A DNA stretch of 18,861 bases from Gammaproteobacteria bacterium. Lineage in GTDB: Bacteria > Pseudomonadota > Gammaproteobacteria > Halothiobacillales > Halothiobacillaceae. Positions 4,008-16,180 of this stretch are shown here, one piece after another. The DNA lies in the NCBI GenBank assembly GCA_029335925.2, contig JARJMX020000101.1:1-18861 (forward strand). Reading direction: 5' to 3'. Numbering within the stretch: position 1 is the stretch's first letter; every line of letters begins with the position of its first letter. The translations under genes and the position numbers were made by a program. The notes below the pieces were generated by a model, which ran no database searches, had not been told where the DNA came from, and saw only the letters and a list, made by a program, of their open reading frames with translations.

Positions 4008-4976
4008 TCAGGGCACCGCCACCGGCCGCAGGCCGTCAAGGATCATGCGTATGGTGGCCTCCGGCGCCTCGCCGATGGCGGTCAGGCGAAACCCATCAAT
4101 GTTACGCGTGATGCGTTGCATGGCGCCGCTGAGGGCCTGCTCGGGGGGCCTCTGTTCGGCTTGGCGTTCGATGAAGACCGACACGTTACCTAGGCCGTCG
4201 GAATAGATGAGATGCTCAAGCAACTTGCCGTTGTGCGGGTTGCGGCGCTCGGCTGCATGGCGCAAGGTGTAGCCGGGCGGTAAGGTCGTGGCGATCCAGC
4301 GCGGCTCAAAGGGCTCCTCCTCAGCCGGCTCCTCCACCACGCGGAACCCCTGGATATCGGTACTCAAGCGCATGACCTCCTCGCCCATTTCCGGCACGAT
4401 GCGAAGGCTAGCGAACTGACTCATCTCCAGACGCCTGTCTCCATCAAGCACCTCGAGGCGAAGCAACATGGCGCTCGGCTCGTGGATGCACAGGCGGTAG
4501 CCATGCCGGTAGGCATCCTTGGGCACCAGCCTGACCACGTTGCAGGTCAGGTTGGCCACACGCGCATCCCCGTTCTGTACAAAATCGTAGAACTTGGCCA
4601 GCTGGACGGTCTCGCCAAAGCGTTCGGCAGACAGGCGCCCGCGCCAGGAAGGTGTACGACCGGTGATCACCAGCCGCGCACGCGGCCAGACACAGGTGCA
4701 ACGATCGCCCTCCTGCAGCAGCTCCCGCGCCGGGCCATCCATGCTTATCAAGCGCTCGCGCTCGCCATGCTGCGCATCGAAGAGATGAAAGATGTGCATG
4801 GTGCGGCTGTCACCGCCCTGCCCCTGCACATGCAGCAGCAGCCCCTCGTAATTAACGGTGTGCAGAGTGTACACCATGCGCTGGAGGAGCGCCTCGATAT
4901 CCGGCGAGGCGCCTGCGACACCGGCGAGCCCAAAGAAAAATGCGATGGGGAGCAGGCGGTTTAGGACAAGAGACAT
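4008..4976 (-). CDS. rseB: RseB/MucB periplasmic sigma-E regulator
   Basis: Periplasmic protein that binds the periplasmic part of RseA/MucA, shields it from site-1 proteolysis, and senses mislocalised lipids or LPS in studied members. The 322 residues begin with a Sec signal peptide (MSLVLNRLLPIAFFFGLAGVAGA) with a likely cut after Ala23. The mature N-terminus PDIEALLQRMVYTLHTVNYEG matches the MucB/RseB N-terminal domain, which has a LolA/LolB-like fold. The smaller C-terminal domain includes PRWIATTLPPGYTL and a region ending in the RITRNIDGF segment. Its ATG shares one base with the rseA stop (TGATG), so translation is coupled. Function is assigned from family and operon position. Confidence 0.95.
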   Translation of the reverse strand: MSLVLNRLLPIAFFFGLAGVAGASPDIEALLQRMVYTLHTVNYEGLLLHVQGQGGDSRTMHIFHLFDAQHGERERLISMDGPARELLQEGDRCTCVWPRARLVITGRTPSWRGRLSAERFGETVQLAKFYDFVQNGDARVANLTCNVVRLVPKDAYRHGYRLCIHEPSAMLLRLEVLDGDRRLEMSQFASLRIVPEMGEEVMRLSTDIQGFRVVEEPAEEEPFEPRWIATTLPPGYTLRHAAERRNPHNGKLLEHLIYSDGLGNVSVFIERQAEQRPPEQALSGAMQRITRNIDGFRLTAIGEAPEATIRMILDGLRPVAVP

Positions 4977-10472: not shown

Positions 10473-11708
10473 GTGCGTCTAACCGATTTGCATATCAAGG
10501 CGCTGCTTTCCAAGCCCGGCAAGCACCGGATCGACAGGCGGCTTTATCTGCTGGTGAAAGCGAGCGGCGCGGCTAGCTGGAGCTATCGTTATCTCGGCGC
10601 GGACGGCAAAGCGCACGAGATCGGCCTGGGCGGATACCCGGACACGTCACTGGCGCGGGCACGGGCCAAGGCGCTTGAGCTTACGGCCAAACGGCAGCAA
10701 GGCATCGATCCTGCCGCCGAGCGCAGACGGGCACGTGGCGGCGCAACCTTTCAGGCTATCGCCGAGCGGCTGATTGCAGCAAAGGCAGCGGGCTGGCGCA
10801 ACGCCAAGCATGCCCAACAATGGCGATCATCTTTGCGCGACTATGCCTATCCGGTCATCGGCCGTCTGGACGTGGATAAGGTGACGGTGGAGCACGTCTT
10901 GAAGTGCCTGCGCCCCATCTGGACGGAAAAGCCAGAGACAGCAAGCCGTCTTAGGCAGCGTATCGAGGCAGTATTGGATGCTGCAACGGCGCAGGGGCTA
11001 CGCACTGGCGATAACCCGGCACGCTGGCGCGGCTGCCTGCAAGCATTGCTGCCACCGGCGGGCAAGGTCAAGCGTACCGAGCATCATCCCGCCCTGCCCT
11101 ATGAGCGGGTGGCAGAGTTTTTCGGCGAGCTTGGCCGCATCGATGGCATGGCGGCGATCTGCCTGCGCTTCGTCATCCTGACGGCCTGCCGATCTGGAGA
11201 GGCGCGGTTTGCGAGGTGGCGTGAGATAGATATGGAGCGTGGGCTATGGACGATCCCGGCCGAGAGGATGAAGGCCGGGCGCGAACACATCGTTCCCCTG
11301 TCTGATCAGGCGCTGGCACTGTTGCGCGATCTGCCGAGGATAGAAGGCTGCGACTGGGTGTTTCCATCGCCGACGAGCAAGCCCATGTCCGACATGGCGC
11401 TGACGTCCTGCATCCGGCGCATGGATGAGAAAGAGCCGGGCCGGTGGATCGACCCACAGACGGGCCGCACCATCACTGTGCACGGATTCCGCGCGACATT
11501 CCGCAACTGGGCCGGCGAAGCAACGCACCATCCGCGCGAAGTGATCGAGCATGCCTTGGCCCACCAAATTCCCGACAAGGCCGAGGCGGCCTACGCCCGT
11601 GGCACGCTGCTTGAGAAGCGCCGACGACTGATGCAGGACTGGGGCGATTTTGCGACCCAAGGGCATAAGGTCATCGATCTGGCGAGCCAGAAGGTTGGCG
11701 CTTTGTAA
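10473..11708 (+). CDS. P4-type tyrosine recombinase (phage integrase)
   Basis: Site-specific recombinase for insertion and excision of the element. The 411 residues start at GTG 10473 behind a strong Shine-Dalgarno GGAGGTGAG. The N-terminus (about 1-90) is the DUF4102 arm-binding domain typical of P4/CP4-type integrases (LTDLHIKALLSKPGKHRI, DRRLYLLVKASGAASW). A SAM-like core-binding domain covers about 92-185. The catalytic domain shows Arg240 (TACRSGEA), Lys267 (MKAGREH), His337/Arg340 (HGFR), His364 (ALAH) and the nucleophile Tyr374 (AYARG), so all active-site residues appear intact. Such enzymes commonly target tRNA or tmRNA 3' ends. The stop codon lies inside the operator of the next pair of genes. 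Confidence 0.96.
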   Translation: MRLTDLHIKALLSKPGKHRIDRRLYLLVKASGAASWSYRYLGADGKAHEIGLGGYPDTSLARARAKALELTAKRQQGIDPAAERRRARGGATFQAIAERLIAAKAAGWRNAKHAQQWRSSLRDYAYPVIGRLDVDKVTVEHVLKCLRPIWTEKPETASRLRQRIEAVLDAATAQGLRTGDNPARWRGCLQALLPPAGKVKRTEHHPALPYERVAEFFGELGRIDGMAAICLRFVILTACRSGEARFARWREIDMERGLWTIPAERMKAGREHIVPLSDQALALLRDLPRIEGCDWVFPSPTSKPMSDMALTSCIRRMDEKEPGRWIDPQTGRTITVHGFRATFRNWAGEATHHPREVIEHALAHQIPDKAEAAYARGTLLEKRRRLMQDWGDFATQGHKVIDLASQKVGAL

Positions 11709-11724
11709 TGCTCAGGATTACAAT
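11695..11724 (+). promoter_or_regulatory. Candidate higBA promoter overlapping its operator
   Basis: TTGGCG (11695-11700), an 18-bp spacer and TACAAT (11719-11724, 5 of 6 to the -10 consensus). The -10 box is formed largely from the right arm of the inverted repeat 11703-11723, so repressor binding would block the polymerase. The predicted start falls at or within a base or two of the higB ATG (11731), and no Shine-Dalgarno is properly placed, suggesting a leaderless toxin transcript. Confidence 0.5.
11703..11723. promoter_or_regulatory. higBA operator, perfect 7-7-7 inverted repeat
   Basis: TTGTAAT (11703-11709), 7 bp, ATTACAA (11717-11723). The arms are perfectly complementary, lie eight bases before the higB ATG and include the last bases of the integrase gene (stop 11706-11708). 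The size and position suit a dimeric HigA-type repressor autoregulating the pair. Confidence 0.7.
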
Positions 11725-11730
11725 TCCGAC

Positions 11731-12009
11731 ATGATCAAGCGGTTCCGGCACAAAGGGTTGGAGCGATTTTTTGCCGAAAGTGACCGGCGCGGCATTCCGG
11801 CCCAATATGCCGCGCGGCTGGAGCGCATGCTGGATCGGCTGGATGCGGCGATTCAGCCCGAAGACATGCGCTTGCCCGGCTACCGCTTTCACGGCTTGAC
11901 GGGTGACCGGCGCGGGTATTTCGCCGTGTCGGTGTCCGGCAACTGGCGATTGACGTTCCGTTTCGAGGGCGAAGACGCAACCGATGTTGATTTGGAGGAT
12001 TATCACTGA
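11731..12009 (+). CDS. higB: HigB-type toxin (RelE/ParE superfamily, GraT-like)
   Basis: Type II toxin of the HigB/GraT branch, family members of which cleave mRNA on the ribosome. From the ATG at 11731 it has 92 residues (MIKRFRHKGLERFF), the standard family length and N-terminus; the frame is open further upstream only through the integrase end. The signature run GYRFHGLTGDRRGYFAVSVS followed by GNWRLTFRFEG and VDLEDYH at the C-terminus is typical. The toxin precedes the antitoxin, the usual order for higBA. The stop overlaps the antitoxin start (TGATG), coupling their translation. It directly follows the integrase, so it probably stabilises the element. Confidence 0.94.
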   Translation: MIKRFRHKGLERFFAESDRRGIPAQYAARLERMLDRLDAAIQPEDMRLPGYRFHGLTGDRRGYFAVSVSGNWRLTFRFEGEDATDVDLEDYH

Positions 12010-12308
12010 TGAGCCTGCGCGATCCGAACCGCAAGCCGACACATCCCGGCGCGATCCTGCGTGAAGACATCCTGCCCGCCCTGGGCATGACGCAAACCGA
12101 ACTGGCCAGACGGCTGCATGTGTCCCGCCTGACGGTGTCCGAGCTGCTGCATGAAAAGCGCCGACTAAGTCCAGAGCTTGCCATCAGACTGGGCAAGTTG
12201 ATGGGCACGAGCGCCGAATCCTGGCTGGCCATGCAAGCGGCGCTGGATTTGTGGGAGGCCAGACGCATGGATAAGACCTTGCCCACAATCCAGCCGCTGG
12301 CGTCATGA
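12009..12308 (+). CDS. higA: HigA-type antitoxin, XRE-family HTH
   Basis: Antitoxin and autorepressor of the HigBA pair. Of 99 residues, about 12-75 form the lambda-repressor-like domain: PTHPGAILREDILPALGMTQTELARRLHVSRLTVSELLHEKRRLSPELAIRLGKLMGTSAESWL, of which the start HPGAILREDILPALG is a hallmark of the HigA/VapI family. The recognition helix lies near residues 39-50 (VSRLTVSELLHE). Its ATG shares one base with the higB stop. The likely binding site is the inverted repeat at 11703-11723. The short C-terminal tail after WLAMQAALDLWEA should contact the toxin or dimerise. Confidence 0.95.
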   Translation: MSLRDPNRKPTHPGAILREDILPALGMTQTELARRLHVSRLTVSELLHEKRRLSPELAIRLGKLMGTSAESWLAMQAALDLWEARRMDKTLPTIQPLAS

Positions 12309-13047: not shown

Positions 13048-13284
13048 ATGGATACGCTGCTACGTCTTCCCAAAGTCATTGAGATAACTGGTCTAGGCCG
13101 GTCCACTATCTACCGTCTGATGGGGTCCGGCGAGTTTCCACATCAAGTTGCTATCTCGCGCGGCGCGGTCGGCTGGCGCAAGTCCGACATCGAAGCGTGG
13201 ATCGAAAGCCGCAAGCTGGCCGTTGAAGCCCGTGCCGTGCGCGGCTTGGCCAAGAAGATTCTGACCGGCGAAGTTGAGGTGTGA
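13048..13284 (+). CDS. AlpA-family transcriptional regulator / excisionase-like protein
   Basis: Small winged helix-turn-helix DNA-binding protein (78 residues) of the AlpA/MerR-like phage regulatory family. The pattern LLRLPKVIEITGLGRSTIYRLMGSGEFPHQVAISRGAVGWRKSDIEAWIESR is characteristic: HTH at about 12-28, wing with FPHQV, and the VGWRKSDIEAWI ending. AlpA of CP4-57 activates excision via expression of an excisionase, and relatives act as switch regulators or directionality factors. The gene stands first in the replication module, with only 3 bp to the next gene, so it probably controls that operon or excision. Its upstream region contains two strong inverted repeats. Confidence 0.92.
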   Translation: MDTLLRLPKVIEITGLGRSTIYRLMGSGEFPHQVAISRGAVGWRKSDIEAWIESRKLAVEARAVRGLAKKILTGEVEV

Positions 13285-13287
13285 GCC

Positions 13288-13776
13288 ATGCTCGCACCCA
13301 AAGAAAAAGCCGCCCACGTCGGCCAACGGGAAGCGGCATCTAATACATACGCGTTCGCCATTCTATCCCGCCTGCTCGACAGGCTGCAAGGAGTCAAGCG
13401 CACCGGTGCCGGTCGGTGGATTGCACGCTGCCCGGCGCATGAAGATCGTCATCCATCGCTTGCGATTCGTGAGCTGGAAGACGGCCGAGTGCTACTCCAT
13501 TGCTTCGCCGGTTGCGACGTCCATCAGATCGTTTCCGCGGTAGGGCTGTCTTTAGCCGACTTGTTCCCGCCGCGCGCCATCGATCACGCAAGGCCGGAAC
13601 GCATCCCCTTTCCTGCCGCCGACGTTTTGCGCGCAGTGGCCTTCGAGGCCCTACTGTGCGCCGTGGCGGCGGCGGATATGGCCAAGGGCAAGACGCTATC
13701 GGACGCCGAGCGCGAGCGGCTGATCAAGGCGGCCGCACGTTTGCAAGAAGCCGCACGGCTGGGGGGTGCGGCATGA
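13288..13776 (+). CDS. CHC2-type zinc-finger protein (primase zinc-binding domain only)
   Basis: 162-residue protein with a primase-like zinc-ribbon: CPAH (Cys48, His51) followed by HCFAGC (Cys72, Cys76), in the context RWIARCPAHEDRHPSLAIRELEDGRVLLHCFAGCDVHQIVSAVGLSLADLF, the form found at the N-terminus of P4-alpha-like and phage primases. In primases this domain recognises template DNA. No Toprim or AEP catalytic motifs follow: the remainder (about 95-162) is helical and Ala-rich. The ATG at 13288 follows alpA by 3 bp with GAGGTG as the Shine-Dalgarno. The stop overlaps the DUF927 start (ATGA), so the two are translationally coupled and probably work together at the origin. Confidence 0.88.
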   Translation: MLAPKEKAAHVGQREAASNTYAFAILSRLLDRLQGVKRTGAGRWIARCPAHEDRHPSLAIRELEDGRVLLHCFAGCDVHQIVSAVGLSLADLFPPRAIDHARPERIPFPAADVLRAVAFEALLCAVAAADMAKGKTLSDAERERLIKAAARLQEAARLGGAA

Positions 13777-15758
13777 ACGCGCGCGTATGGGAAGGCATCG
13801 AAAACGGCGCGGCCTTTCTGGATGCGCGAGCGCAAGCGCCAAGCTGCGACTATGCCGGAGGGCGTTTTGTGGTGCGCGATGAAGGCGTCTTTTTCGAGGC
13901 CCACGACAAGGACGGTGAGCCGCAGCCGCCGCTGTGGATTTGCTCGCGCATTGACGTGTTGGCCAAGACGCGCAACGGCGGCAGCGAAGAGTGGGGGCGT
14001 CTGCTCGAATGGCACGACGACGATGGCATGGCCCATCGATGGGCCATGCCGATGAGCCTGCTGCAAGGCGACGGGCTGGAGGTGCGGCGCGAGCTGGCCC
14101 GGCGCGGCCTGCGTATCTCGCCATCCCGTAAGGCCCGCGACCTGTTGCAAGCTTACCTGCAAGTCTGGCCCACCGAAGCGATGGCGCGGTGCGTGGAGTG
14201 CATCGGCTGGCATGGCAGCGTCTATCTTCTGCCGCAAGAAGCGATTGGCCAGACCGAGGAAATCGTCGTCTATCAAAGCGAGCATGCCATCGCCCCCGGT
14301 TTTGCGACGCGCGGCGACGTGGAAAGCTGGCGCGAGCATGTCGGCAAGTTGCTATCTGGTAACTCTCGGTTGGTGTTTGCCGCAGCGTGTGCCTTGGCCG
14401 GTTCGCTGCTGGATATCGTGGGCGAAGAAGGCGGCGGCTTTCACCTGCGCGGCGCATCCTCTACCGGCAAGAGCACGGCACTGCGTGCAGCCGCCAGCAT
14501 CTGGGGTGGGCGGGATTACGTGCGCAACTGGCGCGCAACGGCCAACGGTCTTGAGGGCGTGGCGGCGGCGCACAACGATGGTGTGCTGATTCTCGACGAG
14601 ATCGGCCAGTGCGACCCGAAACAAGCGGGCGAGACCGCTTACCTGCTCGCCAATGGGCAAGGCAAGACCAGAGCCAACCGCACGGGCGCGGCGCGGCCTG
14701 TTGCCCGCTGGCGGTTGTTGTTTCTTTCCTCTGGCGAGGAGAGCCTGCCCGCACTGGCGGCCCGAGCTGGCTATCGGACGACGGCCGGGCAGGAGGTGCG
14801 GCTGGCTGACATCGAAGCCGATGCCGGGTGTGGCATGGGGCTATTTGAGAACCTGCACGGGTATTCTTCCCCGGCCGCCTTCGCGCAAGCCATCAAAGAC
14901 GCTACCGACCGCCATCACGGCGCGATTGGCCGCGCGTGGCTGGAACGCATCGTGGCTAATCGCGAGCAATGGGCTGACACCCTGCGCAGCATCGTGGACA
15001 AGTTTGCGACCATGGGCGGAGAAGGTGCGACCGGCCAAGTGGTGCGCGTGGCCAAGCGGTTCGGGTTGGTAGCCGCTGCCGGTGAGTTGGCAACCCGCTA
15101 CGGTCTGACCGGTTGGCAAGAAGGCGAGTCCTTCGCCGCCGCCAAGGCCTGCTTCCTGTCGTGGCTGGAAGGCTTTGGCGGTGGGAAGGTGCTACACGAG
15201 GAGCGCGCCATACTGGCGCAAGTACAAGCCTTCATCGAAGCGCACGGCGATGCACGGTTTCAGCGTCTGGACGGCGACGACAACCGCATCGTCCGCGATC
15301 GTGTTGGCTTCGTGCGCCAGCGTGAAGGCGCGACCGAATACCTGATCCTGCCTGAGGCTTTCCGCCGTGAGGTGTGCAAGGGTTTCGACAGCAAGGAGGC
15401 TGTGCGGGTGCTGCGTGAAGTCGGCTGGCTGGTGCCCGGAGGAGACAACAGACCTACACGTTCAGAGCGGATAGGGGGCTACGGCACTGTGCGTGTCTTC
15501 TTATTGCGCCCATCGTTTTTGAGTGGTGACACTGGTGACATTGGTGACAGCCTTATAAATCAATGGGTTACGGTGTCACCACTGCAAAAACGCACTGGTG
15601 ACACTGGTGACAAGTACGCCGGTTTGTCACCACTGTCACCACTTTCTTCTGATGGTGGTGACAGGAAAAACTTCAATAAAAACAATGATTTAACCACTGT
15701 CACCACTGTCACCAGCGAAAAAACCATCCCCCGCATTGAAGTGGAGTTGCGGCTATGA
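13773..15758 (+). CDS. DUF927 helicase-like ATPase (element replication protein)
   Basis: Replicative helicase-like P-loop ATPase common in prophages, satellites and integrative elements. The frame is open from 13500, but the ATG at 13773 overlapping the previous stop is the evident start, giving 661 residues. The DUF927 region covers about 1-340: AYLQVWPTEAMARCVECIGWH, then Walker A GASSTGKST (227-235), Walker B VLILDEIGQ (271-279) and sensor-1-like LLFLSSGEES (315-324). A winged-helix-like portion around 480-570 includes VRDRVGFVRQ and AVRVLREVGWLV. The last 75 or so residues are low-complexity (GDTGDIGD, LSPLSPLSS, TTVTTVTSE) because they are encoded by the repeat array 15524-15714. The C-terminal tail is therefore probably constrained by DNA function rather than protein fold. 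Confidence 0.93.
   Translation: MNARVWEGIENGAAFLDARAQAPSCDYAGGRFVVRDEGVFFEAHDKDGEPQPPLWICSRIDVLAKTRNGGSEEWGRLLEWHDDDGMAHRWAMPMSLLQGDGLEVRRELARRGLRISPSRKARDLLQAYLQVWPTEAMARCVECIGWHGSVYLLPQEAIGQTEEIVVYQSEHAIAPGFATRGDVESWREHVGKLLSGNSRLVFAAACALAGSLLDIVGEEGGGFHLRGASSTGKSTALRAAASIWGGRDYVRNWRATANGLEGVAAAHNDGVLILDEIGQCDPKQAGETAYLLANGQGKTRANRTGAARPVARWRLLFLSSGEESLPALAARAGYRTTAGQEVRLADIEADAGCGMGLFENLHGYSSPAAFAQAIKDATDRHHGAIGRAWLERIVANREQWADTLRSIVDKFATMGGEGATGQVVRVAKRFGLVAAAGELATRYGLTGWQEGESFAAAKACFLSWLEGFGGGKVLHEERAILAQVQAFIEAHGDARFQRLDGDDNRIVRDRVGFVRQREGATEYLILPEAFRREVCKGFDSKEAVRVLREVGWLVPGGDNRPTRSERIGGYGTVRVFLLRPSFLSGDTGDIGDSLINQWVTVSPLQKRTGDTGDKYAGLSPLSPLSSDGGDRKNFNKNNDLTTVTTVTSEKTIPRIEVELRL
15524..15714. 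repeat. Iteron-like array, candidate replication origin inside the DUF927 gene
   Basis: Eleven perfect copies of TGGTGACA. Forward copies start at 15524, 15533, 15542, 15596, 15605 and 15656; inverted copies (TGTCACCA) start at 15574, 15625, 15634, 15698 and 15707. Adjacent copies are 9 bp apart, which keeps the reading frame (three codons). AT-rich DNA lies between copies (15551-15570 and especially 15664-15692). About 0.006 copies would be expected by chance in this length. The satellite phage P4 alpha protein binds similar type I iterons (TGTTCACC) at its ori and crr. The origin role is inferred. Confidence 0.75.
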
Positions 15759-16180
15759 CCGCTGGCGGCTTGTTGAACACGGTGCGCGAGGTGGGGCTGA
15801 AGGTGGCGCTGAGCGACAAAGGTGCTGTCACGGTGCGTGGCGACGAGGCAACGCTGGCGCGCTGGCGGCCTGTGCTGCGTGAGCACAAGCTCGCCCTTCA
15901 AGCCGCCTTGCTGGCAGAGCATGCGCAAGACATCGAGGCGGCATTGGCCTGCGTCATGCCGCGCGCGCAGGCACACGCCGAAGCGATGGCGGCCACCGGG
16001 CTACTGGCCCGCAATACCGGCTGCCCGTGGGTGGCGCTGCGTGATGCGCTGCACGATGAGACGCTGCCCAACACGACCGATCCCGTGGATAGGCCGCCCT
16101 ATGGCCTGCCTGCGTGGTGTTTAGCGCCCAAGACGGGAATACCTATTCGTCAAGGGCAATACTCGCAACCCCAACCCTAA
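15755..16180 (+). CDS. Hypothetical protein with TubC N-terminal docking-like domain
   Basis: 141-residue protein starting at an ATG that overlaps the DUF927 stop (ATGA). The N-terminal 50 residues (LLNTVREVGLKVALSDKGAVTVRGDEATLARWRPVLREHKLALQAALL) have the helix-strand-strand-helix pattern of TubC_N docking domains, which also occur as short proteins beside phage primase or helicase genes. In megasynthases these domains dock subunits; here a protein-protein contact with the replication proteins is a guess. The C-terminal half is Ala-rich and helical, followed by a short Pro-rich segment (VDRPPYGLPAWCLAPK). No catalytic motif is seen. Confidence 0.75.
   Translation: MTAGGLLNTVREVGLKVALSDKGAVTVRGDEATLARWRPVLREHKLALQAALLAEHAQDIEAALACVMPRAQAHAEAMAATGLLARNTGCPWVALRDALHDETLPNTTDPVDRPPYGLPAWCLAPKTGIPIRQGQYSQPQP

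Follow-up and report, generated by a model that had tools for sequence, protein, structure and literature searches.

The alpha protein of P4 binds type 1 repeats. In the P4 record (NC_001609), the six annotated type 1 repeats at ori read FFF-R-FF, where F is GGTGAACA. PICI origins consist of two iteron sets flanking an AT-rich region, as described in the legend to Fig. 2 of PMC6092414, and passages of the same paper state that both rep and the ori site of EcCICFT073 are needed for plasmid maintenance. Among self-loading helicases, Cch contains DUF927 and a C-terminal DNA-binding domain according to excerpts of PMC7581432, in which SaPI Rep is also said to appear to bind its iterons as two hexamers. 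In lambda, a passage of PMC3349717 places the iterons of ori inside the initiator gene O. The literature searched (titles, abstract starts, and passages, with few subscription journals) contained no description of a DUF927 iteron origin in coding sequence, and within the same scope, again with few subscription journals, no satellite iterons with double hexamers were described.

The window, i.e., the whole stretch of 18,861 bp analyzed here, contains eleven exact copies of the octamer TGGTGACA, all inside positions 15524-15714. As the first-pass annotation had reported, six are forward (starting at 15524, 15533, 15542, 15596, 15605, and 15656) and five inverted (15574, 15625, 15634, 15698, and 15707), with a spacing of 9 bp within groups. 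Dinucleotide shuffles of the window yielded a mean of 0.41 copies and a maximum of 3, while the 1.64-Mb assembly to which the window belongs holds 57 copies and no further cluster. The heptamer GGTGACA occurs in the window outside the array only at 2505 and, inverted, at 4808, in agreement with the two occurrences noted earlier (near 2505 and 4806). A twelfth, degenerate copy (TTTAACCA, 2 mismatches) lies at 15689; this copy and the global symmetry of the array had both been overlooked. The twelve sites form one dyad, FFF-R-FF followed by RR-F-RRR, with its axis at approximately 15618/15619 and mirror pairs at 15524/15707, 15533/15698, 15542/15689, 15574/15656, 15596/15634, and 15605/15625, whose start positions sum to 31230-31231 in all six cases. 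None of 500 shuffles of gaps and orientations matched the five exact mirror pairs. The left half-module (15524-15612, + strand; module score 6.0/6) comprises 15524, 15533, and 15542 (F), 15574 (R), and 15596 and 15605 (F), with start-to-start gaps of 9, 9, 32, 22, and 9. Its mirror image, the right half-module (15625-15714, - strand; module score 5.0/6), comprises 15625 and 15634 (R), 15656 (F), the degenerate 15689, and 15698 and 15707 (R), and a central spacer of 12 bp (15613-15624, 42% AT) separates the two.

The AT-rich stretch that had been noted within the array is present at 15664-15688 (76% AT vs 38% in the whole window) and sits within one half of the array, not at its center. Its proposed role as an unwinding element gains weak support from comparison: of 13 convergent arrays, only 8 have a matching gap that is AT-richer than its mirror gap. 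Conservation of such an element was therefore rejected, and we treat the stretch as a possible unwinding element. In the GC-skew check that had been recommended, cumulative skew climbs along the element but shows no extremum at the array. Scans for Rfam families and tRNAs in the window produced no matches, and a blastn comparison of the array with phages returned two matches, both at chance level.

The array lies in the gene for a DUF927 initiator-type helicase of 660 aa (13776-15758, + strand), which is related to SaPIbov1 Rep, its closest solved fold, and to SCCmec Cch, also among its nearest folds, and which would act as the initiator. A winged-helix-like C-terminal domain (residues 472-585; 15189-15530, + strand), presumed to bind the iterons, is followed by a C-terminal extension of 75 codons (15531-15755, + strand) that spans the array and is predicted to be disordered (pLDDT <50 for 586-661). 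The stop codon occupies 15756-15758 and the array ends at 15714, placing the iterons within the helicase reading frame. The next gene (15755-16180, + strand; 141 aa, without a family match) starts with an ATG that overlaps the helicase stop (ATGA). Directly upstream of the helicase is a CHC2 zinc-finger primase-like protein (13288-13776, + strand), which matches PF01807 at an E value of 2.9e-4, below the family cut-off, and the DNA primase family phrog_6088 at 1e-15; it is preceded by an AlpA-family excisionase/regulator (13048-13284, + strand; PF05930, 8.5e-18). A tyrosine integrase (10473-11708, + strand; PF22022, PF13356, and PF00589) lies at the left of the element, which carries phage-type genes as well. 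A HigBA-like toxin-antitoxin pair adjoins the integrase at 11650-12308; its antitoxin (12009-12308) matches phrog_1381, and the toxin was judged by eye.

Relatives were compared at 73 DUF927 loci from plasmids and genomes, of which 65 were analyzable, the other 8 having no match that reached residue 530. An array was scored where the 500 bp past the helicase fold held at least 5 copies of one 7-mer, with both strands counted together, and no more than 5 of 100 shuffles equaled this number. Just 3' of the helicase fold, 36 of the 65 genes (window included) carry such an array, a count that retains the near-duplicates L273/L291 (one place), L300/L301, and L304-L306, whereas among 195 control windows, placed inside or upstream, only 4 reached five 7-mer copies. 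This comparison supports the earlier suggestion of a putative iteron origin inside the helicase gene. No array was detected by this test in the remaining 29 of 65 homologues, including L268 (47% identity). Eight relatives were found in IMG/VR with the alignment A2, all of which hold 10-14 array copies; queries with the window protein or the P0004 protein yielded no confirmed relatives there. Dyad symmetry is significant (p <0.05) in 21 of 44 arrays and not significant in the other 23.

The array words, among them GGTGACA, GGGGACA, GTGGGAC, GGCAACA, GGTAACA, and GTGGTAC, vary by lineage but center on the theme G..ACA, which is matched at 4.0 of 5 positions vs 2.6 of 5 in shuffled words, although each word had been registered to that theme beforehand and the comparison is biased in its favor. 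Conservation of the octamer itself in plasmid homologues was rejected, because a TGGTGACA array occurs in none of 13 plasmid DUF927 loci (taken from 20 listed of 72 matching plasmid records). However, 6 of these 13 (L245, L248, L249, L251, L252, and L253) carry their own word at 5 or more copies, so the absence of TGGTGACA there no longer reads as a refutation. In Mantel tests, the distance between words is correlated with that between helicases (r 0.23-0.35, p 0.0005-0.005). The DNA-binding domain shows no stronger correlation than the core, however, and since all helicase parts behave about equally, the covariation may reflect shared ancestry only. L301, L325, and L274 were left out of this correlation and of the frame-openness and free-gap module analyses described below.

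Arrays trail helicase genes in plasmids and elements of varied make-up, and in 32 of the 36 loci the stop codon precedes the array or, as in L278, L280, and L310, is located among its first sites. The helicase frame runs through the array in L263, L264, L285, and the window, with tails of 93, 91, 125, and 84 residues past residue 576, respectively. The next ORF contains the array in L293, L296, and L299. In L292 the array is spanned by a small ORF, which begins on the helicase stop (GTGA), crosses a GGGGACA array, and finishes on a later ATG (ATGA; L292:3240-3560), a possible translational relay across a putative origin. The highest copy number among the DUF927 loci was observed in L280, with 15 CTGATAC copies in ~410 bp past the DUF927 gene, which is matched in two frames. 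L252 (E. coli plasmid NZ_CP128951, 460619-470355) is a P4-like satellite with psu, ogr, and a TOPRIM-DUF927 protein, whose gene is followed 3' by the satellite's own GTGGAACA-type array.

The extension of the window protein through the array, about 80 codons, is rare. Among the best 120 of 3699 homologues, the alignment passes window residue 540 in every case, yet 116 stop no more than 15 residues past the aligned part and lack a tail, which is present only in the window protein and P0002-P0004; a protein search with the tail alone matched only P0001 and P0002. The bodies of P0003 and P0004 are identical to the window protein at 396/574 and 387/579 positions, and their tails at 13/74 and 14/73. 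To decode the tails, all possible codons were enumerated from the protein, and the best-fitting word with mirror symmetry was taken. The P0003 tail decodes to GGGGACA with 12 sites ordered FFFRFFRRFRRR and all six mirror pairs, the P0004 tail to TGGGACA (10 sites, 4 mirror pairs), the window tail to TGGTGAC (11 sites, 5 mirror pairs), and the P0002 tail to GGTGAC words (13 sites, 4 mirror pairs). None of the shuffled tails (40 each) reached these site counts or had more than 2 mirror pairs. Two homologues without a tail, decoded over their final 84 residues, gave results like those of shuffles. Peptide shuffling also breaks tandem repeats, and mirror pairs are therefore the more telling measure. 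The word thus changes in the coding tails while the layout is kept. Judged from arrays decoded from protein, the long-tailed relatives appear to keep a DNA layout rather than a peptide, in line with the first-pass view of the tail as a probable by-product of the DNA pattern. The accompanying expectation of an array conserved while its residues drift held for the layout, against a changed peptide, but not for the octamer itself, whose word differs between lineages.

Selection for read-through of the array is only suggested by these data. Of 5000 shuffles, 132 left the tail frame open, and the 4 long tails among 73 loci are near the chance level given by shuffles, so the case for such selection rests on P0001-P0004 and on the difference between forward and reverse openness. 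Frames are open across 24 of 36 arrays in the forward direction (expected 9.4) and 16 of 36 in reverse (expected 10.2), a forward excess that is only suggestive because 9-bp phasing by itself favors open frames. The start of the next gene overlaps or adjoins the helicase stop in all four read-through loci (ATGA in the window, GTGA in L264, TGATG in L263, and TAAATG in L285), and read-through probably keeps this gene translationally coupled.

A scan with TGGTGACANTGGTGACA found at least 116 stretches in bacterial genomes and at least 120 in viral contigs. Four or more octamers within 400 bp were present at 72 loci; 25 of these had <2 copies in one orientation and were left out of the module analysis, leaving 47 mixed-orientation loci (window included), 44 of them distinct. 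One stretch (L193:1780-2048) holds 16 TGGTGACA copies in a single orientation within a 782-aa ORF and is probably a true coding repeat, in contrast to the mixed arrays. The hand-picked nearest large ORFs (n=43, window included) comprised 18 VapE and 4 DUF927 proteins, with terminase families also represented; 19 array neighbors scanned singly gave 14 VapE, 2 DUF927, and 3 without a match. The half-module template (F0 F9 F18 R50 F72 F81), with a score of at least 4.5 as cut-off and the window in both sets, was found in 37 of 88 half-searches of the DUF927 set and 19 of 88 of the octamer set; the corresponding figures for its mirror image were 10 of 88 and 1 of 88. Both halves reached 4.5 in 14 loci of the DUF927 set, with 12 convergent readings, among which the halves of L245 overlap and L323 and L325 are near-identical, and 2 divergent ones (L251 and L322). 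Excluding the window, 9 loci of the octamer set had both halves at 4 or above: 7 are divergent with spacers of 77-86 bp (L015, L139, and L141 being confirmed VapE loci), L019 is an overlapping reading, and L045, a DUF927 locus, is convergent. When the gaps were not fixed, 42 of 87 arrays gave a total of 63 readings, some of which overlap and 48 of which share one polarity; the triple-to-single gap peaked at 32 bp (17/63), and the single-to-double gap measured 21-24 bp in 38/63.

Freshly sampled loci, 5 of 60 of which were unusable and some of whose ORFs may have been mischosen by the ORF picker, held arrays of at least 6 copies in 6 of 26 VapE 3' regions (1 of 51 control windows) and in 3 of 29 D5_N 3' regions (0 of 58 control windows); these results are supportive of the module idea, but sparse, with most loci lacking an array. 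In L335, fetched irrespective of arrays, a complete divergent dyad of 12 TGGGAAC sites (6 pairs) lies downstream of a VapE helicase gene. The 288-bp interval that separates rep of EcCICFT073 from its neighboring gene, taken as ori, is a dyad array of 11 GGTAGA sites (local numbering R62 R71 F117 R139 R150 R159 F190 F201 R223 F269 F278), ten of which form five pairs with a sum of 340, leaving R159 without a partner; the automatic module reading recovered a half of the expected polarity together with a reading of the opposite polarity. The annotated repeats of the P4 crr (L328:4291-4590) include a group partly related to the ori module, and the automatic reading gave no full module there. The two distant cis regions of P4 might each hold one half-module. 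We tentatively propose, with somewhat more doubt than confidence, that a six-site docking code (three sites, one inverted, two, with gaps near whole helical turns) is common to satellite and phage origins with initiators from distinct helicase families (P4 alpha, D5_N, VapE, and DUF927). Each half would seat one hexamer, and two halves, convergent in most DUF927 loci or divergent in VapE loci and EcCICFT073, would load a double hexamer; the word could be swapped in all copies with the layout kept, and the code, being short and phased, could be overprinted by coding sequence.

The array is very probably the replication origin of the integrated element, built, like P4 and PICI origins, of iterons, here as two facing six-site half-modules overprinted by coding sequence. 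The DUF927 helicase whose gene holds the array would recognize it through its C-terminal domain. The octamers could instead be binding sites through which the helicase or another element protein regulates expression or copy number, with the origin elsewhere. Iterons often double as control sites in known replicons, the array overlaps the operon junction, and in P4 the ori repeats recur in another cis region apart from ori; however, a position directly 3' of the fold of an initiator-type helicase resembles that of the PICI origin region tested in plasmids, the P4 ori has a matching group of six sites, and we consider purely regulatory sites improbable. Protein-level selection on a low-complexity C-terminal peptide, with the DNA repeats as its by-product, would fit the keeping of frame within groups and the about equal tail length in P0001-P0004, but it is hard to reconcile with inverted copies that are read in different frames (SPLSP and TVTTVT), with the tail-less state of nearly all the best listed homologues, with the many loci whose array is outside the helicase frame, with the low tail identity (13/74) despite the same decoded layout, and with the predicted disorder of the tail. 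Because the word is replaced in both orientations while the layout is kept, peptide selection offers no explanation, and we give it very little credence. It is likewise highly unlikely that the array serves the mobile element in recombination, packaging (cos/pac), or another non-replicative process: integrase and phage-type genes and the terminase families near some octamer arrays would suit such a role, but the arrays follow the helicase gene in elements of different make-up, and VapE helicases are the commonest family among array neighbors (18/43).

Under the origin reading, a hexamer of the self-loading helicase would dock on each half-module, with the two rings loaded in opposite orientation, nearby AT-rich DNA would melt, and bidirectional replication of the excised element could begin, with the upstream CHC2 protein as candidate primase. 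The array lies just beyond the helicase stop codon in most of the array-bearing relatives compared, and in the clade of the window an in-frame extension crosses it and runs as far as the next start codon; the operon would probably stay translationally coupled via this extension, with the encoded tail as a by-product. DUF927 is still a domain of unknown function in Pfam, though present in many mobile elements, and the arrays offer its proteins a predicted origin and binding word. The dyad of six plus six sites provides a concrete hypothesis for the placing of self-loading hexameric helicases on DNA. In addition, the coding tails appear to be a clean natural example of selection on DNA prevailing over peptide sequence, in which protein sequence alone is enough to read out the array layout.

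Compared with described origins, the P4 ori matches the left half of the array, sharing six sites in the same order and polarity (FFF-R-FF), which bears out the likeness to P4 type I iterons drawn in the first-pass annotation; the right half matches at five of six sites plus one degenerate. P4 also resembles the element of the window in being a satellite that encodes its own primase-helicase. However, the P4 ori word is GGTGAACA as against GGTGACA, the P4-type repeat word TGTTCACC is absent as a word of the window array, which uses TGTCACCA, and the gaps are 10, 11, 22, 43, and 10 in P4 and 9, 9, 32, 22, and 9 in the window half. The six-site ori and the distant crr of P4 are both outside the alpha gene, whereas the window array is inside the helicase gene. 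The window encodes a DUF927 protein and a separate CHC2 protein.

The O protein of lambda is not known to be a helicase. The O gene resembles the window locus in holding iterons within the coding sequence of the initiator, but, in the passages cited above, its four 18-bp iterons are accompanied by a 38-bp AT-rich stretch, while the window has 8-bp sites in both orientations arranged as a dyad. The window helicase shares the DUF927 core and the C-terminal winged helix with the self-loading helicases SaPIbov1 Rep and Cch; the putative origin of SCCmec Cch2, as given in excerpts, consists of three intergenic AAGTG iterons, whereas the window array is within coding sequence. In PICI origins the array is directly 3' of rep; the window array is directly 3' of the conserved helicase fold, but inside an extended ORF before the stop. 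EcCICFT073 has divergent halves, a D5_N helicase, and the hexamer GGTAGA, whereas the window halves converge and are paired with a DUF927 helicase. The two iteron sets of the cited PICI legend are matched by two mirror-image six-site halves, but the AT-rich center described there has no counterpart in the 12-bp spacer (42% AT), the AT-rich DNA being within a half, and for this reason we describe the window array as very probably working like a PICI or P4 origin rather than classifying it as one.
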